Part shown: positions 45,909 through 55,742 of the stretch, one piece after another | Numbering within the stretch: the stretch's first letter is position 1 | Layout: the number at the start of each line of letters is the position of its first letter | Origin: Sphingomicrobium nitratireducens | GTDB lineage: Bacteria > Pseudomonadota > Alphaproteobacteria > Sphingomonadales > Sphingomonadaceae | Reading direction: 5' to 3' | Assembly: GCF_026157035.1 (NCBI RefSeq) | Contig: NZ_JANJZA010000001.1 | Coordinates: 1,219,001-1,283,000 of the forward strand | Length of the DNA: 64,000 nt | The notes under the pieces: model-generated | Database searches by the model: none | What the model saw: only the letters and a program-made list of their open reading frames with translations | Told to the model about the DNA's origin: nothing | Made by a program: the position numbers and the translations under genes

Positions 45909-47195
45909 CTAGCGCTCGCCCACCGGGACGTAGTCGCGCTGCGTCGCGCCGACATAGAGCTGGCGCGGGCGGCCGATCTTCTGCTCGGGATCCGAGATCA
46001 TCTCGTTCCACTGCGCGACCCAACCGGTGGTGCGGGCGAGCGCGAACAGCGCGGTGAACATCTCGGTCGGGAAGCCGATCGCGTTGAGGATGATACCCGA
46101 ATAGAAATCGACGTTCGGGTAGAGCTTCTTCTCGATGAAATATTCGTCGCTGAGCGCGATCTGCTCGAGCTCGCGCGCCACGTCGAGGACCGGGTCGGAA
46201 ATGTTCAGTTCCTTGAGCACTTCCTCGGCAGTCTGCTGCATGACCTTCGCGCGCGGATCGTAGTTCTTGTAGACGCGGTGGCCGAAGCCCATCAGGCGGA
46301 ACGGATCGTTCTTGTCCTTGGCGCGATCGACGTACGACTTGACGTTCTTCGCATCTCCGATCTCGCGCAGCATGTTCAATGCGGCCTCGTTGGCGCCGCC
46401 ATGCGCCGGGCCCCACAGACAGGCGATGCCCGCCGCGATGCAGGCGAACGGGTTGGCGCCCGAGGACCCTGCAAGACGCACGGTCGAGGTCGAGGCGTTC
46501 TGCTCGTGGTCGGCATGGAGGATGAAGATACGATCCATCGCGCGTTCGATGACCGGGTTGACCTCATAAGTCTCGGCAGGGACGCCAAACGTCATGCGCA
46601 GGAAGTTGCCCGTGTAGCTGAGGTCGTTCTGCGGGTAGAGGAAGGGCTGGCCGATCGAATATTTGTAAGCCATCGCCGCGATGGTCGGCATCTTGGCGAT
46701 CATGCGGTGCGAGGCGACCAGGCGCTGCGTCGGATCGGTGATGTCGGTGCTGTCGTGATAGAAGGCCGAAAGCGCGCCGACCACGCCGCACATCACGCTC
46801 ATCGGGTGCGCGTCGCGGCGGAACCCGCGGAAGAAGTGCACGATCTGCTCGTGGACCATCGTGTGGTAGGTGATGGTCTTGGAGAAATCCTCGAGCTCAT
46901 CCTTCTTCGGCAGGTCGCCGTGGAGCAGCAGATAGGCCACTTCCATGAAGGTCGAATGCTCGGCCAGCTGGTCGATCGGGTAGCCGCGGTGGAGCAGCAC
47001 GCCCTTGTCGCCGTCGATATAGGTGATCGCGCTCTGACAGCTGGCGGTCGAGGTGAAGCCTGGGTCGTAGGTGAACTTGCCCGTCTGGCCGTAGAGCTTG
47101 CGGATGTCGATGACGTCCGGGCCGACCGAACCGGGAAGGACGGGATACTGGTAGTCGCCGCCTTCGGTCTTCAGTTCAGCGGTCTTGTCGGTCAT
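45909..47195 (-). CDS. gltA: Citrate synthase
   Basis: A 428-residue hexameric-type (long) citrate synthase condensing oxaloacetate and acetyl-CoA. The N-terminal beta domain ([20 protein letters not shown]), catalytic His in [31 protein letters not shown] and a late conserved [20 protein letters not shown] are all present. The ATG overlaps the gltX stop (ATGA), so it is the second gene of a gltX-gltA operon. Confidence 0.97.
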
Positions 47196-48616
47196 TCTTT
47201 GGCTCCACTTTGATCGGCAATGCGGGCGAGGGCTTCGTCGCGTCCCAGGAGGACGAGCACGTCGAAGATGCCCGGCGAGGTATTGCTGCCCGTGAGCGCT
47301 GCACGCAGCGGTTGGGCGAGCTTCCCTAGCTTAACCTCCGCCTCTTCCGCAACCGTGCGGATCGCGGCGTCGACACTCTCGAGATCCCAACGCTCGGCAG
47401 CCGCGAGGGCTGCATAGGCGCGCGCGAGCAACGGGCGCGCCTCGTCGTCGAGCAACGATGCGGCTTTCTCGCTCATCGTGAGCGGGCGGGTGACGAACAG
47501 AAAATGGGCGCTCTCGGCGAGCTGGTTGAGGTCCTGCGCGCGGGCCTTGAGTTCGGGCATCGCCTTGAGGAGCAGCGCGCGGCCCGCCTCGTCGTCGAGC
47601 ATCAGCTTTGGCGCGACCAGCTCGACGAGGCGCGCATCGTCGGCCTCGCGGATATAGTGGCCGTTGAGGTTCAGAAGCTTCTTGGTGTCGAAACGCGCGG
47701 GGCTCTTGCCGACGCCGGCAAGGTCGAACCATTCGGTCGCTTCCTCGCGGCTGATGATCTCGGCATCGCCGTGCCCCCATCCGAGGCGCAGGAGGTAGTT
47801 GAACAGCGCTTCGGGCAGGAGGCCCATTTCGTCGCGATAGGCATCGACACCGAGCGCGCCGTGCCGCTTGGACAGCTTGGCCCCGTCGGCGCCGTGGATC
47901 AGCGGGACGTGGGCATAGGTCGGCTCGGGCCAGCCCATCGCGCGGATCAGGGGAAGCTGGCGGAAGGCGTTGTTCAAGTGATCGTCGCCGCGAATGACGT
48001 GGGTGACGCCCATGTCGTGATCGTCAACCACCACCGCGAGCATGTAGGTCGGCGTGCCGTCCGAGCGCAGCAGGATGAAGTCGTCGATTTCCTCGTTTTT
48101 CACCGCGACGCGGCCCTGGACGGCGTCCTCGATGACGGTTTCGCCTTCGCTGGGCGTCTTGAGGCGCACGACGAATGGCTGGCCATCCTGCTCCGCGCCG
48201 GGAGTGCGGTCGCGCCATTCCGAATTGATGCGGAACGGCCGCTTTTCGGCCTGTGCCTTCTCGCGGCGGGCTTGGAGTTCCTCGCTGGTCAGGTAGCAGC
48301 GATAGGCGTTGCCGCTCTCGAGCAGCGCATTGGCGACCTCGACATGGCGCGCGGCGCGCTCGAACTGGTAGGTCGGCTTGTCGTCGCCTAGGAGGCCGAG
48401 CCATTCGAGCCCGTCGTGGATCGCCTCGATCGCCTGCGGGGTCGAGCGCTTGCGGTCGGTATCCTCGATGCGCACGAGATACTTGCCGCCATGGTGGCGC
48501 GCGAAGAGATAGTTGAACAGCGCGGTGCGCGCGCCGCCAATGTGGAGATAGCCCGTCGGGGAGGGGGCAAAGCGCGTCACCACGCCGGGGATCTTGTCGC
48601 TTGCGCTCACGCGCAT
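47192..48616 (-). CDS. gltX: Glutamate--tRNA ligase
   Basis: A 474-residue class I synthetase. The HIGH-type motif is in [20 protein letters not shown] and the KMSKS-type motif is [11 protein letters not shown]. The anticodon-binding C-terminal domain follows (about residues 330-474). The true start may be a GTG or ATG slightly inside the annotated one, since family members usually begin a few residues before [10 protein letters not shown]. It diverges from comEC with 23 bases between starts. Confidence 0.95.
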
Positions 48617-48639: not shown

Positions 48640-50763
48640 ATGGATTTGGCCAGCGCCCCTAACACGGACGCTGCCGCGTCGCTACCGGGAGACGACACAA
48701 AATTCACGTCCCGGCTGCGCCTGCTCGGGCGGCAGATCGAACGATTCCTCGAGGCCGAGCGGGGCCAGCTCCCGCTATGGGCGGTCGTCCTGTTCGGGAC
48801 GGGCATCGCGCTGTGGTTCGCGCTGCCCGACGCGCACGCGTGGAGCGCGGTGATCGCGGCCGGATCGGGGCTGGGGCTCGCCGGTGTGGCGGTGCCCGGA
48901 CGCACGGGGCGCGCGATGCTGGTCGGCGGACTGCTACTGGCGGCCGGCATGGGATGGATCTGGTGGCGCGCCGAACGGGTCGCAGCACCGCGCATCGAGC
49001 GCGTGTCGGTCGAGCGGTTCGTCGCCGAGGTCGAGCGTGTCGAGCCGCTGGTCGCCAAGAACAAGGTCAGGCTGACGGTGGTGCCCGAGGGTGCCGCGCT
49101 GCCGCCGCGCCTCAGGGTGACGTTGCGAGAAGCGCAGGTCGTCCCGGGGATCGGGCCTGGCGCACGGATCGACGTGCGGGCGCGGCTGATGCCCCCGCCG
49201 ACGCGCGCGCTGCCCGGCGGTTACGATTTCGCGGCCAAGGCGTGGTTTTCTCAGATCGGCGGGGTCGGAACCGCGCTCGGCGAGGTCGAGGTGTTGCGCC
49301 CGGCTCGAGGCAAGTCGATCGACGGGGTGCGCGCCGCGATCGGCGCGCATGTGCGCGAGCGATTGCCCGGGCAGGGCGACGGGATCGCGACCGCGCTTGC
49401 CACGGGCGACAAAAACGCAGTTGAGGACGGGCTCGCGGAGGCGATGAGGCGGGCGGGGCTTGCCCATCTGCTTGCCGTGTCGGGTTTGCATATTGCCGCG
49501 GTCGTGGGGGCAACGATGCTGCTCTCGCTCAAGTTGCTGGCGCTATCGCCGCGACTGGCGCTGTCGACCAACCTCGTGCTCGTCTCGGCCGCCTTCGGCG
49601 CGGCGGCAGGGATCGGCTACACGCTGCTGACCGGCATGCAGGTGCCGACCGTGCGCGCGTGCATCGCGGCGCTGCTGGTGCTGGCCGGGCTGGCCCTCGG
49701 GCGCGACAGTCTCAGCCTCCGATTGGTCGCGGTGGGTGCGCTGCTCATCATGCTGGTGCGGCCCGAGGCGATCGCGGGGGCGAGCTTCCAGCTGAGCTTC
49801 GCCGCGGTGACCGCCATCATCGTACTCCATGCCAACCCGCGCGTCTCGGGCTGGATCGCACGGCGAGAGGAAAGCCTTCCGGCGCGGTTCGGCCGGGGCG
49901 TGCTGGCGCTGCTGCTGACGGGCCTCGCGGTCGAGGTCACGCTGATGCCGTTCGCGTTCTACCATTTCCACAAGGCGGGGCTGTACGGCGTGGTCGCCAA
50001 CCTCTTCGCCATTCCGCTGACGACCTTTGTCGTGATGCCGCTGCTGGCGCTGGCGCTGTCAGCCGATCTCGTGGGGGCGGGAGCGCCGTTCTGGTGGGGC
50101 GCGGGCAAGGCGCTCGATTTGCTCGCGGGGCTTGCGACGACCGTTTCGGGGGCAGAGGGCGCCGTGGCCATGGTGCCGTCGATGCCGACAGTCGCGTTCG
50201 CGCTGTGCGTTGCCGGCGGGTTGTGGCTGTTCGTGTGGCGCGGCCCCGTGCGGCGATGGGGCATCGTCCCCATGGCTGCAGGGCTCCTCTGCACGGCAAG
50301 CGTCGAGGGCCCGGACCTGCTGGTGACGGGAGACGGGCGGCACGTGGCGATCATCGAAGGCGGCGTGCCTGCGATGTTGCGCGCGCGCAGCGGCGACTTC
50401 ACGCGCGACATGTTGAGCGAAGCGGCAGGCTTCGACGGCGATCCCATCGCACTCGACGCCTTTCCGGGCGCGCGGTGCAATCGCGACTCGTGCACGGCAC
50501 GGATCGAGCGGAACGGGCGGCGGCTCGACCTGCTTGCCCTTCGCAGCCGTGATTTCATGCGGTGGCGCGATCTCGTCGCGGCCTGCGCCATCGCCGACGT
50601 CGTGGTGGCCGACCGCAGGCTTCCCGACGCCTGTGCGCCGCGCTGGCTCAAGCTCGACCGGCCCGCGCTCGAACGAAGCGGCGGCATCTCGATCCGGATC
50701 GGCGACGTGCCCGCGCTACGCAGCGTGCGAAGCGAGGGTGGAGAGCATCCCTGGCAACGCTAG
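48640..50763 (+). CDS. comEC: ComEC/Rec2-family DNA uptake channel
   Basis: A 707-residue polytopic protein. An N-terminal DUF4131 region with membrane helices and a soluble OB-like part ([20 protein letters not shown]) leads to the competence domain, with the diagnostic [20 protein letters not shown] and [20 protein letters not shown]. The C-terminal about 170 residues stand where a metallo-beta-lactamase domain usually is, but no HxHxDH motif is present, so the nuclease part looks degenerate. It carries DNA across the inner membrane in transformation. The ATG at 48640 avoids overlap with gltX. Confidence 0.9.
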
Positions 50764-51101: not shown

Positions 51102-51584
51102 CTAGCCGGCATCCACCTCGTTCTCCTCGGCGACTTGGTAGACCGCGATCTCGTTGCCGGCCGGATCGACCGCGTGGAAGCGGCGACCGCCGGGAAAGGC
51201 GAAGATCGGGCGGGTGATGCGTCCGCCCGCCGCCTCGACATCCTCGAGTGCGGCTTCAAGGTCGGGCACGCGAATGACGGGCAGCGGCAATTCGATCTTG
51301 TCCTCGTCGGAGGCGGCCGAGATGCCGATGTCGGTGTCGCCGGTGGTCGTCGCCACGTAGAAGGGCGCGAACTCGGTCATTTCCCAGGCGAAGGCCTGTT
51401 CGTAGAAAGCGCGCGCCTTGGCGACCGCTTCGGCGTCCTTGGCGGGAAGTTCGAAATAGTCGAGCCGGGCCTTGGGCACTTCATTCTCCTGTGTGGTCGT
51501 CTCGCGCGCCTCGTCGTCGGCCGCCGGGGCGCAGGCGGCCAGCGCCAACAAGAGCGCGGCGCCGACGGGAAGCGCGCCGCTCAT
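51102..51584 (-). CDS. VOC (glyoxalase-fold) lipoprotein
   Basis: A 160-residue protein with a lipoprotein signal (GAALLLALAACAPAADDE, lipobox LAAC) and one vicinal-oxygen-chelate domain (YFELPAKDAEAVAKARAFYE... to VDPAGNEIAVYQ). A lipid-anchored VOC protein would face the periplasm. The substrate and metal are unknown; the second-strand metal ligand set is incomplete by eye. The ATG overlaps the lexA stop (TGATG), so it is translated from lexA mRNA. Confidence 0.82.
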   Translation of the reverse strand: MSGALPVGAALLLALAACAPAADDEARETTTQENEVPKARLDYFELPAKDAEAVAKARAFYEQAFAWEMTEFAPFYVATTTGDTDIGISAASDEDKIELPLPVIRVPDLEAALEDVEAAGGRITRPIFAFPGGRRFHAVDPAGNEIAVYQVAEENEVDAG

Positions 51585-52240
51585 CAATAGCGCCGGATGA
51601 TGCCGGCAAGCCGACCCTGGATCCGTACGCGGGCTTCCTCGTAGCGCTGCGGCTCGTAGGACGCGTTGGCAGGGTCGAGGCGCACGGTCGGTCCTTCGCG
51701 GCGATAGGTCTTGAGCGTCGCCTCTTCCTCGTCGACCAGTGCGACCACGATCTCGCCGTCGCGCGCCGTATCGACCTTGCGGATCAGCGCGAAGTCGCCA
51801 TCGAGTATGCCTTCCTCGATCATCGAATCGCCCGACACCTCGAGCGCGTAATGCTCGCCGGGCCCGAGCAGGGCCGCTGGGACCTGGAAACCCTCGGTGC
51901 CCTGCAGTGCCTCGATCGGCGTGCCCGCGGCGATGCGGCCGTGCAGCGGGATTTCCACCACGTCATTGGCGGGGGCAGGAGCGACGTGCATCGCCTTGGC
52001 GGGGGTATCGGTGGCGGTGTCCATCCCTTCGGGAAGCTTGACCACCTCGAGCGCGCGGGCGCGATTGGCGAGGCGGCGGATGAAGCCACGTTCCTCGAGC
52101 GCACCGATCAGGCGATGGACGCCCGACTTGGACTTGAGGTTCAGCGCCTCGCGCATCTCGTCGAAACTCGGCGAAATGCCGGATTCTCCGAGACGGTGAT
52201 GGATGAAGGCGAGAAGTTCCTTCTGTTTGGCGGTGAGCAT
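51584..52240 (-). CDS. lexA: LexA repressor
   Basis: A 218-residue SOS repressor/protease. The N-terminal winged helix has [20 protein letters not shown]. The self-cleavage site is Ala105-Gly106 ([10 protein letters not shown]) and the catalytic dyad is Ser139 (EVSGDSM) and Lys177 (EATLKTYRR). A LexA box and promoter lie just upstream, so it is autoregulated. It ends overlapping the VOC lipoprotein gene. Confidence 0.97.
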
Positions 52241-52259
52241 CGGGTCCCCCTAGGCAATG

Positions 52260-52274
52260 GAACGAACGGGGAAC
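52260..52274 (-). promoter_or_regulatory. SOS (LexA) box of lexA
   Basis: GAAC (52260-52263) and GAAC (52271-52274) are separated by 7 bases; on the minus strand this is GTTC-N7-GTTC, the direct-repeat operator known for alphaproteobacterial LexA. It lies 20 bases before the start codon and abuts the -10 element. Confidence 0.85.
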
Positions 52275-52303
52275 ATTTAGGTAACAATGCGAGGCTAAGT
52301 CAA
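52274..52303 (-). promoter_or_regulatory. lexA promoter
   Basis: On the minus strand TTGACT (52303-52298) and TAAATG (52279-52274) are 18 bases apart; the LexA box directly follows. The -35 overlaps the end of trpG. Confidence 0.6.
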
Positions 52304-52887
52304 GTCGTTTCGCGCACGCACTCTTCGAGAAAGGCGCGCAAAAGCGCGTGTCCGTGCTCGCTGGCCACGCTTTCCGGGTGGAATTGGACCCCGTGGGCCG
52401 GTGCGCCCTGGTGGCGCATCGCCATGACCAACCCCTCCTCGTTCCACGCGTTGGCGAGAAGCGGGGGCGCGACGCAGGTGACGGCGAGCGAGTGATAGCG
52501 GGTGGCGTCGAAGGGGCTGGGCAGGCCGGCCAACAGCCCGCTCGCGTCGTGCCGGACACTGGCGATCTTGCCGTGGACGGGCGCGACGCGTGCAACCGTG
52601 CCCCCGCAGGCGAGCGCCAGCGCCTGGTGGCCGAGGCAGACGCCGAGATAGGGGCGTCTGGCCGCGACGCAGGCCGCGGCGAGCGGGACGCTGATTCCGG
52701 CGTCCCCGGGCGTCCCCGGCCCGGGCGAGACGAGGATGCCGTCTGCATTGCTCGCCAATGCGTCCGCGACCGAAAGGCCGTCGGCGCGCACGGTAGTGAC
52801 CGGCGCGCCGAGGCTTTTCAGATAGTCGACGAGCGTGAAGGTGAAGCTGTCGAAATTGTCGACGACGAGGATCGCCGGCGCGCGCAT
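52300..52887 (-). CDS. trpG: Anthranilate/aminodeoxychorismate synthase amidotransferase component
   Basis: A 195-residue class I glutamine amidotransferase. It starts ILVVDNFDSFTFTLVDYL; the triad is complete with the nucleophile in YLGVCLGHQALA and His/Glu in GVQFHPESVAS. It supplies ammonia to TrpE (tryptophan) or PabB (folate). No trpE, trpD or trpC is adjacent, so pabA function is equally possible. It starts 6 bases after the PpiD-like gene ends, so they are co-transcribed. Confidence 0.9.
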   Translation of the reverse strand: MRAPAILVVDNFDSFTFTLVDYLKSLGAPVTTVRADGLSVADALASNADGILVSPGPGTPGDAGISVPLAAACVAARRPYLGVCLGHQALALACGGTVARVAPVHGKIASVRHDASGLLAGLPSPFDATRYHSLAVTCVAPPLLANAWNEEGLVMAMRHQGAPAHGVQFHPESVASEHGHALLRAFLEECVRETT

Positions 52888-52893
52888 CGGGCC

Positions 52894-54840
52894 TTAGTTG
52901 TCGTCCCCGATGATGCGCGAGCGCGTGGCGGCGATCGCCTTCTCGTTGCGGGTGGTGCCGACATCCTTCTTCATCGCCGCAAGCAATTGCTGGCCGATCT
53001 CGGAGGCGAGGGGCTGGCGGAAACTTTCCGCGGTCTGCGTGACGAGACCAGGGCTGGTCAGCGCGTTGCCGGGGGTCACCTTGGCGGCCTTGACGATGAA
53101 GATACCGCGACCTTCGGGGTCGGCGGCCAGCTGGCTCTTGCCCTCGGCGAGGTTGAACAGCATCTGCACCGGCGGGGGCACCTGCTCGCCCATCTGGGTC
53201 AGCTGGATGCGCCGCAGTGTGATCGTGTCGGTCGGGGGAAGAGAGATGCCTTCCTCCTTCTCGACCGCAGCGACCGCGTCGGCGGGGCTGGCGCCGCCCG
53301 CGACGCGCTTCTGGATCTTGAGCGCAATGGTGCGTGCCCGCTTCATCGCCTCGTCGATGGTCCAGTCCTTGGCGACCTGGTCGCGGATTTCGGCAAGCGG
53401 CGCTGGCGCGGCCTCGACCACATCCTCGGGCACGACCATCGCGAAGCTCTCCTTGTCGGCAAGCGTCTCGATCACCGGCTCGTCGTCGGCTTCCATCGCG
53501 AAGCCGGCCTCGAGCGCGGTGCGCAGTCTGGCGGGGAAGCTGTAGTCGGGGTTCGAACGCGCGCGACCGCTGGCGGTGATCAGCGGCGTCTGGACGACCT
53601 CGAGGTCGAACTGCTTGACCGCTTCGGCGAAGCTGGCCCCATCGAGGACCATGTCCTCGATCCGGGTGACGAGGTCGATTAGCGCCTCCTTGCGCTTCTC
53701 TTCGGTCAGTTCGGCGGCGACCTTTGCACGTGCTTCGCCAGGCGAGACACCGCCCTCGGTACGCACCGAATCGACCTTGACCACGTGCCAGCCGAGATCC
53801 GAGCGGATCGGGCCGACCACGCTGCCACCGGCAACGCCGGACGCGAACACCGCGTCGGCGACCTTGTCGCTGGCGAGGTCGGCGAACTGGTCTTTGTCCT
53901 GCGGGCCGACCGAGACGTCGGCGGCCGAATAGCCCTCGGGGCTCACGGCGTCGACGAAGCTGCCCGTCCTGGCAGCGGCGGCGACCTTGTCGGCAGCCGC
54001 CTTGTCGCCGAGCACGACCTGGCTGATCACGCGGATCTCGCGCGAGGAGAATTCGGCGGCGCGATCCTTGAGCGCCTTCTCGATTTCGGCGTCGGTCGGG
54101 ACGATCGCGGCAACCTGCGGCGCGCCGATCGGGGCGATGCGCAGGACACGCTGTTCGGGCACGGTGTAGCGCGCACCATTGTTGCGGTAATAGGCTGCGA
54201 CCTGTTCGGCAGTCGGCTTGAGGCTCGCCTGGAACATATCAGTCGGGACCAGCGCGATCTGGCCTTCGCGTTCCTCGAGAAGCATCGAGGCATAGGGCGT
54301 CGCAAAGCCTGTCGGGACGCGCACTTCGGCGGTGGCCGGGGTGATCAGGAAGCGGCGCAGGAGATCGCCCGCGAGCAGCTTGCGTACCTGTCCGTCGGTC
54401 ATGCGCTGCTGGGCGAGGAATGCCTGATAGGCCTCTTCGCTGAACTTGCCGTCGAGCCCGCGCGCGGCCGGGATTCGCGCGATCTCCGCATCGACCAGTC
54501 GCTTGGACAGCACGAAACCGTTGTCGTCCGCGAACGCGTTGAGCGCGCGGTCTTCGAGGAGGAGTTGCAGAATCGCGTCGAACTCGCCCGCGAGGTCGGA
54601 ATAGTCCGCCTCCGGATTGACCTGGCGCACCTGCGACAGGCGCTGCTGGAGCGCGTCGGACAGGTCCTTGTCGGTGATCTTTTCGTCGCCCGCGCTGGCC
54701 AGCGAGTCTGCGCTGCCGCCGCCGCTGGTGAAGTTCGAGAGATCGGCGAGCGCAAAGGACGCGACGATCAGGAGCAGGAAGATGCCGAGGATGATCGTGC
54801 CGACCGTCGACTTGGACAGGTTGCGAAAGGACGAGAGCAT
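52894..54840 (-). CDS. PpiD/SurA-type peptidylprolyl isomerase, membrane-anchored
   Basis: A 648-residue periplasmic foldase with one N-terminal membrane helix (TVGTIILGIFLLLIVASFAL), a SurA-N-like chaperone part (about residues 40-200), a parvulin (rotamase) domain around residues 240-370 (SDLGWHVVKVDSV near its end) and a long C-terminal helical region. PpiD associates with the Sec translocon and helps emerging proteins fold. The ATG at 54840 matches the family's short N-terminus (LSSFRNLSKS); longer readings are not supported. It diverges from tpiA over 155 bases. Confidence 0.9.
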   Translation of the reverse strand: MLSSFRNLSKSTVGTIILGIFLLLIVASFALADLSNFTSGGGSADSLASAGDEKITDKDLSDALQQRLSQVRQVNPEADYSDLAGEFDAILQLLLEDRALNAFADDNGFVLSKRLVDAEIARIPAARGLDGKFSEEAYQAFLAQQRMTDGQVRKLLAGDLLRRFLITPATAEVRVPTGFATPYASMLLEEREGQIALVPTDMFQASLKPTAEQVAAYYRNNGARYTVPEQRVLRIAPIGAPQVAAIVPTDAEIEKALKDRAAEFSSREIRVISQVVLGDKAAADKVAAAARTGSFVDAVSPEGYSAADVSVGPQDKDQFADLASDKVADAVFASGVAGGSVVGPIRSDLGWHVVKVDSVRTEGGVSPGEARAKVAAELTEEKRKEALIDLVTRIEDMVLDGASFAEAVKQFDLEVVQTPLITASGRARSNPDYSFPARLRTALEAGFAMEADDEPVIETLADKESFAMVVPEDVVEAAPAPLAEIRDQVAKDWTIDEAMKRARTIALKIQKRVAGGASPADAVAAVEKEEGISLPPTDTITLRRIQLTQMGEQVPPPVQMLFNLAEGKSQLAADPEGRGIFIVKAAKVTPGNALTSPGLVTQTAESFRQPLASEIGQQLLAAMKKDVGTTRNEKAIAATRSRIIGDDN

Positions 54841-54995
54841 GTGCGTGAGGCTCGATAGCTGACTTAAAGGAAGTGACGCTTTAGAAGGGGGCAGGGCCAA
54901 GTTCAACCGGAACGCGCCCTTGGATTTCAGTGCATTGCCTGCTAGGCCGCCCGCCAAGTTTTCACAGAACAGTCCGATCGACGGGGAGCGAGGGG

Positions 54996-55742
54996 ATGGC
55001 GCGCCGGAAACTGGTCGCGGGAAATTGGAAGATGCACGGGCTCGGCGCCGATCTGGGCGAAGCCACGCGCATCTCGATGTCAGCGGAAACGCTCGACGGG
55101 GTCGACGTGGCCCTGTGTGTCCCCTTCACGCTGATCGAACGTGCGGTCGAGGCCGCGCCCGGGTTCGCGGTCGGCGGGCAGGATGTCCATCACGAGGAAA
55201 AGGGTGCGTTCACGGGCTCGATCTCGGCGGCGATGCTCAAGGACGCTGGCGCCTCGCTCGTCATCGTCGGCCATTCGGAGCGACGCGAAGCATTTGCGGA
55301 AACCAGCGAGACGGTGGCGGCCAAGGCCGCCGCGGCGCTTGCGGGCGATCTCGACGTCATCGTGTGCGTGGGCGAGAGCCTCGACGTGCGCGAGGCGGGC
55401 AACGCCCTCGAGACGGTTAGCGCCCAGCTGATCGCCTCGCTGCCGGAGACGTTCGACACGGACTGCCTGTCGGTCGCCTACGAACCGATCTGGGCGATCG
55501 GCACGGGCAAGGTGGCCGGGCCCGAGGAAATCGAGGAGATGCACGGTCATTTGCGACGCCAGGTGGCGGCCGCGCGCGGCGAGGAGATCGCCGGGGCCCT
55601 GCGTATCCTTTACGGCGGATCGGTGAAGGGCGAGAATGCCGACACCATCCTCCATCTGTCGGACGTCGACGGCGCGCTCGTCGGTGGTGCCAGCCTAACG
55701 GCAGACCAGTTCGTTCCGATTATGAAGGCCGGCCAAGCCTGA
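54996..55742 (+). CDS. tpiA: Triosephosphate isomerase
   Basis: A 248-residue TIM barrel interconverting the triose phosphates. Active-site elements: KLVAGNWKMHG (Lys), IVGHSERR (His), AYEPIWAIGTGK (Glu) with the flexible loop, and ILYGGSVKGENA. The ATG at 54996 follows GGGGAG/GAGGGG at a normal distance; an earlier start at 54930 adds unrelated residues. Confidence 0.97.
   Translation: MARRKLVAGNWKMHGLGADLGEATRISMSAETLDGVDVALCVPFTLIERAVEAAPGFAVGGQDVHHEEKGAFTGSISAAMLKDAGASLVIVGHSERREAFAETSETVAAKAAAALAGDLDVIVCVGESLDVREAGNALETVSAQLIASLPETFDTDCLSVAYEPIWAIGTGKVAGPEEIEEMHGHLRRQVAAARGEEIAGALRILYGGSVKGENADTILHLSDVDGALVGGASLTADQFVPIMKAGQA

Follow-up and report, generated by a model that had tools for sequence, protein, structure and literature searches.

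Gene Order at the Locus

The stretch analysed here (the window) comprises 64,000 nucleotides of contig NZ_JANJZA010000001.1 of Sphingomicrobium nitratireducens (positions 1,219,001 to 1,283,000, forward strand), and the gene under study is a trpG-like gene lying in it between a PpiD-like gene and lexA, most likely a pabA serving p-aminobenzoate synthesis. All three genes lie one behind the other in the same direction on the minus strand, and the PpiD-like gene and trpG are 6 bases (52888-52893) apart (Table 1). The product of 195 amino acids scores 171.6 bits against the trpG_papA model TIGR00566 (cut-off 121.05), and Cys84, His170 and Glu172 (window protein numbering), which we take to be the catalytic triad, are invariant across an alignment of 22 TrpG sequences. 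This anatomy, including the short gap and the intact triad, had been described in an initial annotation made from the letters of the DNA, and both the coordinates and the alignment agree with it. At the trpG stop, where it placed the start of the lexA promoter, the stop codon (52302-52300) sits, by eye, within a TTGACT hexamer (52303-52298), and no good -10 element accompanies it. A GTTC-N7-GTTC repeat, presumably a LexA-box motif, was also seen by eye at 52274-52260, between trpG and lexA. The glyoxalase/VOC-like lipoprotein gene that overlaps the lexA stop occurs in some of 20 mapped loci from congeners.

Table 1. Genes and candidate features around the trpG-like gene, in window positions
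Feature	Position	Strand	Basis
trpG-like gene, most likely pabA (glutamine amidotransferase subunit of aminodeoxychorismate synthase)	52300..52887	-	TIGR00566
PpiD-like peptidyl-prolyl isomerase	52894..54855	-	PRK10788, 97.1 bits, under strict cut-off
lexA	51584..52240	-	TIGR00498, 175.6 bits (cut-off 110.95)
Candidate lexA promoter region (TTGACT and LexA-box-like repeat)	52260..52303	-	by eye
Glyoxalase/VOC-like lipoprotein gene, overlapping lexA stop	51102..51587	-	named by inspection only
comEC	48655..50763	+	name from initial annotation
gltX	47192..48616	-	name from initial annotation
gltA	45909..47195	-	name from initial annotation
tpiA, divergent from ppiD	54996..55742	+	name from initial annotation

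A Compact Order Shared Across the Genus

The initial annotation had given tpiA-ppiD-trpE-trpG-trpD-trpC-moaC-moeA-lexA as the sphingomonad order and had read the absence of trpE, trpD, trpC, moaC and moeA as a loss particular to S. nitratireducens. The order it gave is real, being found in 8/10 sphingomonad-titled loci compared besides that of S. lutaoense (L165-L167, L169-L173, L175 and L179); a Porphyrobacter metagenome-assembled genome (L166) shows it from trpG onward, and in Sphingopyxis (L171) no moaC, moeA or lexA was found within ~6 kb after trpC. On marine contigs, moaC and lexA have likewise been described after trpC (PMC2395257). Sphingomicrobium resembles this cluster in that its trpG keeps its place before lexA, but differs in that trpE, trpD, trpC, moaC and moeA are gone from the window as well as from 30 further loci of the genus. 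These loci, read over ~12 kb each, represent 30 of the 42 other genomes carrying a window-type trpG. In all 30, ppiD, trpG and lexA are consecutive with tpiA near, and no match to native-type trpE, trpD, trpC, moaC or moeA, or to E. coli-like trpE, trpD or trpCF, was found in the ~12 kb around trpG, S. lutaoense being one of them. The exception in detail is G021, with lexA reversed and a ppiD-trpG gap of 885 bases, the gaps of the remaining loci spanning 2-124 bases as measured between match ends. The compact ppiD-trpG-lexA order is the norm for the genus and not a loss by S. nitratireducens, and the cluster genes most likely departed from this locus before Sphingomicrobium radiated.

The genes thought missing were sought in the whole S. 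nitratireducens genome (2.27 Mb in 3 contigs, 99.99% complete). Both moaC and moeA lie at C1:1705445-1706355, within a single moaE-moaB-moaC-moeA run faced by mobA, the matches of moaE, moeA and mobA falling under the NCBI strict cut-offs. MoaC occurs in 15/37 genus members of the relatives sample; molybdenum cofactor genes come and go within the genus, yet those looked for (moaC, moeA, moaE, moaB and mobA) are present in this species. On these genes the proposed loss of the cofactor pathway was rejected, and cofactor auxotrophy is unsupported. An operon of trpD, a trpC-trpF fusion (trpCF), trpB and trpA adjoins his genes at C1:304-309 kb, its products passing the cut-offs of TIGR01245, PRK09427, TIGR00263 and TIGR00262, which disposes of a missing trpD or trpC and of a loss of all trp genes. 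For most of what the initial annotation claimed, both outcomes that it had named beforehand as contrary to its reading were found, namely genes elsewhere in the genome and a compact order in relatives. As a side observation, the trp locus of S. lutaoense (G019, L110) has no hisG or yerC match, and the gene downstream of the his operon in S. nitratireducens there adjoins trpD instead, so that his genes left or were lost at that trp locus.

Probable Loss of Anthranilate Synthase at the trp Operon

The absence of trpE, in contrast, extends to the whole genome. The single Chorismate_bind (PF00425) gene, on contig C2, encodes a PabB-PabC fusion (PabBC), which also answers the suggested search for pabB. 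It scores 332.1 against TIGR00553 (cut-off 328.4), falls under every TrpE cut-off listed and has a PabC-like C-terminal part; its motif PMKGT stands where TrpE of the congener G018 has PIAGT, motifs which we take to be PabB-type and TrpE-type, respectively. With trpE absent and PabBC as the only Chorismate_bind gene, tryptophan auxotrophy is therefore likely, as had been suggested, with the lesion at the trp operon and not in the window, and S. nitratireducens probably needs an external supply of tryptophan or anthranilate.

Among relatives, aroF (encoding 3-deoxy-D-arabino-heptulosonate 7-phosphate, or DAHP, synthase), trpE and a second trpG paralogue, trpG2, form one module in 14/14 open trpE loci mapped. 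The order yerC / aroF-trpE-trpG2-trpD-trpCF-trpB-trpA is found in nine of these (G018, G006, G035, G002, G013, G061, G072, G077 and G067), in four (G004, G011, G007 and G094) the module is separated from trpD or does not precede it, and for G075 the reading covers one flank. In S. nitratireducens yerC faces trpD directly across 313 bases, the place at which its sister G067 has a leader followed by aroF-trpE-trpG2, and no trpE or trpG2 remnants beyond chance were found between yerC and trpD (best E 0.078). On contig C1, ~960 kb separate this site from the window locus, and the amidotransferase that went with trpE is another paralogue (TrpG2), not the window TrpG.

A FastTree phylogeny of five locus proteins from 31 genomes joins S. 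nitratireducens (G000) with G067 (local support 0.999) and G019 with G018 (1.0); since both sisters carry the module, G000 and G019 lost aroF-trpE-trpG2 separately. Intermediate states of decay were also seen: in G082 (L278:4891-5642) trpE is reduced to its final 61 codons before an open trpG2, and in G025 (L108:6206-6768) trpG2 is broken. Repeated loss of trpE within the genus has mostly spared trpDCFBA together with its Trp-rich leader. A comparable genotype is the gut-bacterial auxotroph variant A3, reported from 38 gut genomes, in which TrpEG is absent, TrpA, B, C, D and F are present and anthranilate salvage has been proposed (PMC9026213). S. nitratireducens likewise has the full pathway except anthranilate synthase, and taken alone its genome has nothing out of the ordinary for an anthranilate auxotroph. 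What is unusual is the pattern across the genus. In difference from the gut variant, the loss recurs among close relatives of one sphingomonad genus, takes aroF along and spares the Trp-rich leader and terminator.

The Window TrpG as a Probable PabA

The window protein belongs, with its conserved catalytic residues, to the trpG/pabA amidotransferase family (TIGR00566), whose two kinds are described as indistinguishable without their neighbours (PMC2395257). Sphingomicrobium differs in having two paralogues, TrpG1 (the window type, at least 56% identity) with PabBC and TrpG2 beside trpE. In a search of 71 genomes of the genus, a Chorismate_bind match was labelled trpE if a TrpG2 lay within 1.5 kb (36) and PabBC otherwise (43), labels that were checked by model for S. 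nitratireducens PabBC and G018 TrpE only. One TrpG2, that of G082, has no Chorismate_bind match nearby. TrpG1 and PabBC occur together in 43 genomes and are jointly absent from 28, with 0/71 discordant, whereas TrpG1 occurs without trpE in 13 genomes and trpE without TrpG1 in 6. Because it is present in 43/43 genomes with PabBC and in 0/28 without, the window TrpG is most likely PabA, and the earlier suggestion that it was kept for p-aminobenzoate synthesis gains from this concordance across 71/71 genomes. Apart from this, 12 of the 53 high-quality (HQ) genomes (at least 90% complete, at most 5% contaminated) are without TrpE, PabBC and both TrpG paralogues (e.g. G015, G030, G022 and G023; L121-L124), and would likely depend on p-aminobenzoate as well as tryptophan.

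Origin and Retention of the trp Operon

The trp set that now serves the genus has a foreign look. TrpE of G018 scores 478.8 against PRK13564 (cut-off 471) and only 410.6 against TIGR00565 (cut-off 494.65), and TrpCF of S. nitratireducens scores 467.4 against PRK09427 (cut-off 380), PRK13564 and PRK09427 being taken here as E. coli-type models. A TrpD phylogeny built from 58 sequences places the 12 Sphingomicrobium TrpD with E. coli (local support 0.998) and the other sphingomonads elsewhere. An E. coli-like trp set thus probably displaced the native one.

The downstream genes have largely outlived trpE, trpC being kept in 21/25 HQ genomes without trpE and absent from G014, G066, G071 and G034. 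Directly upstream of trpD, S. nitratireducens has a leader peptide with LWWWR and a terminator at -29 of trpD (L022:10898-11210, C1 ~308.9 kb), equalled by 1 of 100 shuffles; by eye, the start of this leader resembles the leader before aroF in G067, which suggests where the deletion joined. A short leader peptide with WW and a terminator precede trpD in 15/15 trpE-less trp loci read (shuffles 0 or 1/100 per locus). In trpE-positive genomes they occur in 15/18 stretches tested, whether ahead of aroF or ahead of a trpD standing apart; the three stretches without them belong to G011, G017 and G007, whose trpD operon is separate. No convincing leader was found directly upstream of trpE, because aroF lies between.

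Pairwise dN/dS between S. nitratireducens and G067 is 0.20-0.36 for TrpD, CF, B and A, at a dS of 0.65-0.90 at which very recent relaxation could escape detection. Compared with six outgroups, TrpA stands at 0.635 in S. nitratireducens and 0.644 in the sister, with TrpD, CF and B equal within 0.002, so that its Trp proteins are no more diverged than those of the sister. Against five outgroups, G019 is more diverged than its sister G018 in TrpB (0.787 vs 0.819) and TrpA (0.627 vs 0.672), and the control TpiA shifts likewise (0.598 vs 0.633). Salvage of anthranilate (or indole) is the most likely role of the retained trp genes.

Possible Formation of Anthranilate From Tryptophan

One possible internal source of anthranilate is kynureninase, as in Chlamydia caviae, felis and pecorum, whose operon trpR-trpDCFBA-kynU-prsA includes a kynureninase making anthranilate from kynurenine (PMC10242142, PMC3937554); PMC3937554 states that no other trp operon was known to contain kynU or prsA. 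As in these Chlamydia, loss of trpE together with its amidotransferase, with trpDCFBA kept, is seen in Sphingomicrobium, where canonical kynU (TIGR01814, counted above 190 bits) is largely confined to genomes without trpE. Of the 53 HQ genomes, 27 have trpE only, 20 kynU only (three of which, G074, G076 and G079, score under the curated cut-off), 1 both and 5 neither; the corresponding numbers for all 71 genomes are 32, 29, 4 and 6 (Fisher p 8e-9 and 6e-10, respectively, kinship being ignored). The five HQ genomes with neither are S. nitratireducens, G019, G068, G014 and G066, the last two also being without trpC. In difference from Chlamydia, kynU follows dcd in 16/18 loci read and stands beside trpD in only one (G086, divergent from it, L260:6329-8864), G065 having neither gene near. 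Sphingomicrobium moreover has a tryptophan dioxygenase of its own, and S. nitratireducens is without canonical kynU: no TIGR01814 match was found in its genome, and canonical kynureninase was rejected as its anthranilate source.

Tryptophan 2,3-dioxygenase is present in 67/71 genomes and 53/53 HQ genomes, including S. nitratireducens, whose enzyme scores 292.2 against TIGR03036 (strict cut-off 390.7, not reached). There it is followed by an overlapping gene for a pyridoxal 5'-phosphate (PLP) enzyme (L310:6309-8236, C1 ~233-235 kb), and such an enzyme adjoins the dioxygenase also in 17/17 further loci from 16 genomes, trpE-positive ones included; the wide spread of both genes speaks against a simple replacement of trpE by kynU. 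The PLP enzyme passes the Pfam cut-offs for KYNU_C and Aminotran_5, and it matched no NCBIfam model or PDB sequence. Its predicted fold is that of a class V PLP enzyme (mean predicted local distance difference test score, pLDDT, 79.2; residues 218-225 and 239-272 under 50), and in a fold search the best PDB matches were SufS, with kynureninase 1qz9 at rank 47, so that cysteine desulfurases are not separated from it. Formation of anthranilate from tryptophan may be possible in every member of the genus, S. nitratireducens included.

Proposed Course of Events and Alternatives

Taken together, these results make it quite probable that the window gene is pabA, that the native trp genes were displaced, that aroF-trpE-trpG2 was deleted and that tryptophan synthesis in S. 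nitratireducens now depends on anthranilate. The window PabA would hand glutamine-derived ammonia to the PabB half of the PabB-PabC fusion encoded on contig C2. Native trpE, trpD and trpC would have left the window locus, and moaC-moeA would have moved, before the genus radiated, the probable occasion being takeover by the E. coli-like set with its TrpCF fusion, Trp-rich leader and terminator, and own TrpG2. In S. nitratireducens, a clean deletion of aroF-trpE-trpG2 would then have left a leader-controlled trpD-trpCF-trpB-trpA that receives no anthranilate from chorismate, precluding de novo tryptophan synthesis. Salvaged anthranilate (or indole) would come from outside, or from the cell's own tryptophan via the dioxygenase and the adjacent kynureninase-like enzyme.

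Several points weigh against this course of events. The tree behind the displacement covers TrpD only and has E. coli as its sole enteric-type reference. The link between TrpG2 and trpE is built into the labelling, the TrpG1-PabBC count rests on the same labels, and the co-losses of TrpG1 and PabBC may represent few events. PF00425 would not detect an anthranilate synthase that has diverged far, and the assignment of the dioxygenase's neighbour as kynureninase-like is weak. What the sequences show directly is the gene content and order, the missing module, the leader with its terminator and the co-occurrence; displacement, deletion as the direction of change, PabA function, auxotrophy and salvage are deduced from these.

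The alternatives have to be weighed against the same observations. That the S. nitratireducens locus itself lost its trp and moa genes, leaving the strain auxotrophic for tryptophan and molybdenum cofactor, agrees with the genome-wide absence of trpE, but is extremely unlikely given the compact locus of 30/30 congeners and the presence of moaC, moeA, moaE, moaB and mobA along with trpD, CF, B and A. An undetected enzyme, such as a promiscuous PabBC, might still make anthranilate and keep the strain prototrophic, which would account for the kept leader and terminator and for trpDCFBA genes without a sign of relaxed selection; with PabBC carrying PMKGT, passing the PabB cut-off and staying under those of TrpE, and with no other Chorismate_bind gene, this is very unlikely. 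Somewhat less improbable, though still unlikely, is that the retained trpDCFBA genes are relics nearing decay instead of working salvage genes. The 4/25 trpE-less HQ genomes without trpC, the broken trpG2 of G025 and the truncated trpE of G082 fit such decay, as does the greater divergence of TrpB and TrpA in G019, though the control TpiA shifts likewise there; on the other side stand trpC in 21/25, the WW leader and terminator in 15/15 and a rate not increased over the sister. Salvage of anthranilate through working genes, following displacement and deletion, thus remains the preferred explanation.

Implications

A literature search, which reached few subscription papers, found no published work on Sphingomicrobium together with tryptophan or auxotrophy. 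For the annotation of this genus, the TrpG1/TrpG2 split provides a naming rule for trpG vs pabA. A story of decay at a single locus is replaced by a series of changes, comprising an apparent displacement, an old trpG probably kept as PabA and repeated loss of the committed step. A wider proposal, tentative and on balance doubtful, is that across the genus the trp operon was repeatedly turned into an attenuator-controlled loop, in which the dioxygenase and a kynureninase (canonical KynU, or the KynU-like protein in species such as S. nitratireducens) would feed TrpD-CF-B-A to rebuild tryptophan when it is low; if true, the cycle would resemble that of Chlamydia, although no intracellular life is known for these bacteria. 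Since close relatives are found in many states (intact, truncated, broken or deleted, with or without kynureninase), the value of anthranilate salvage becomes testable within the genus.

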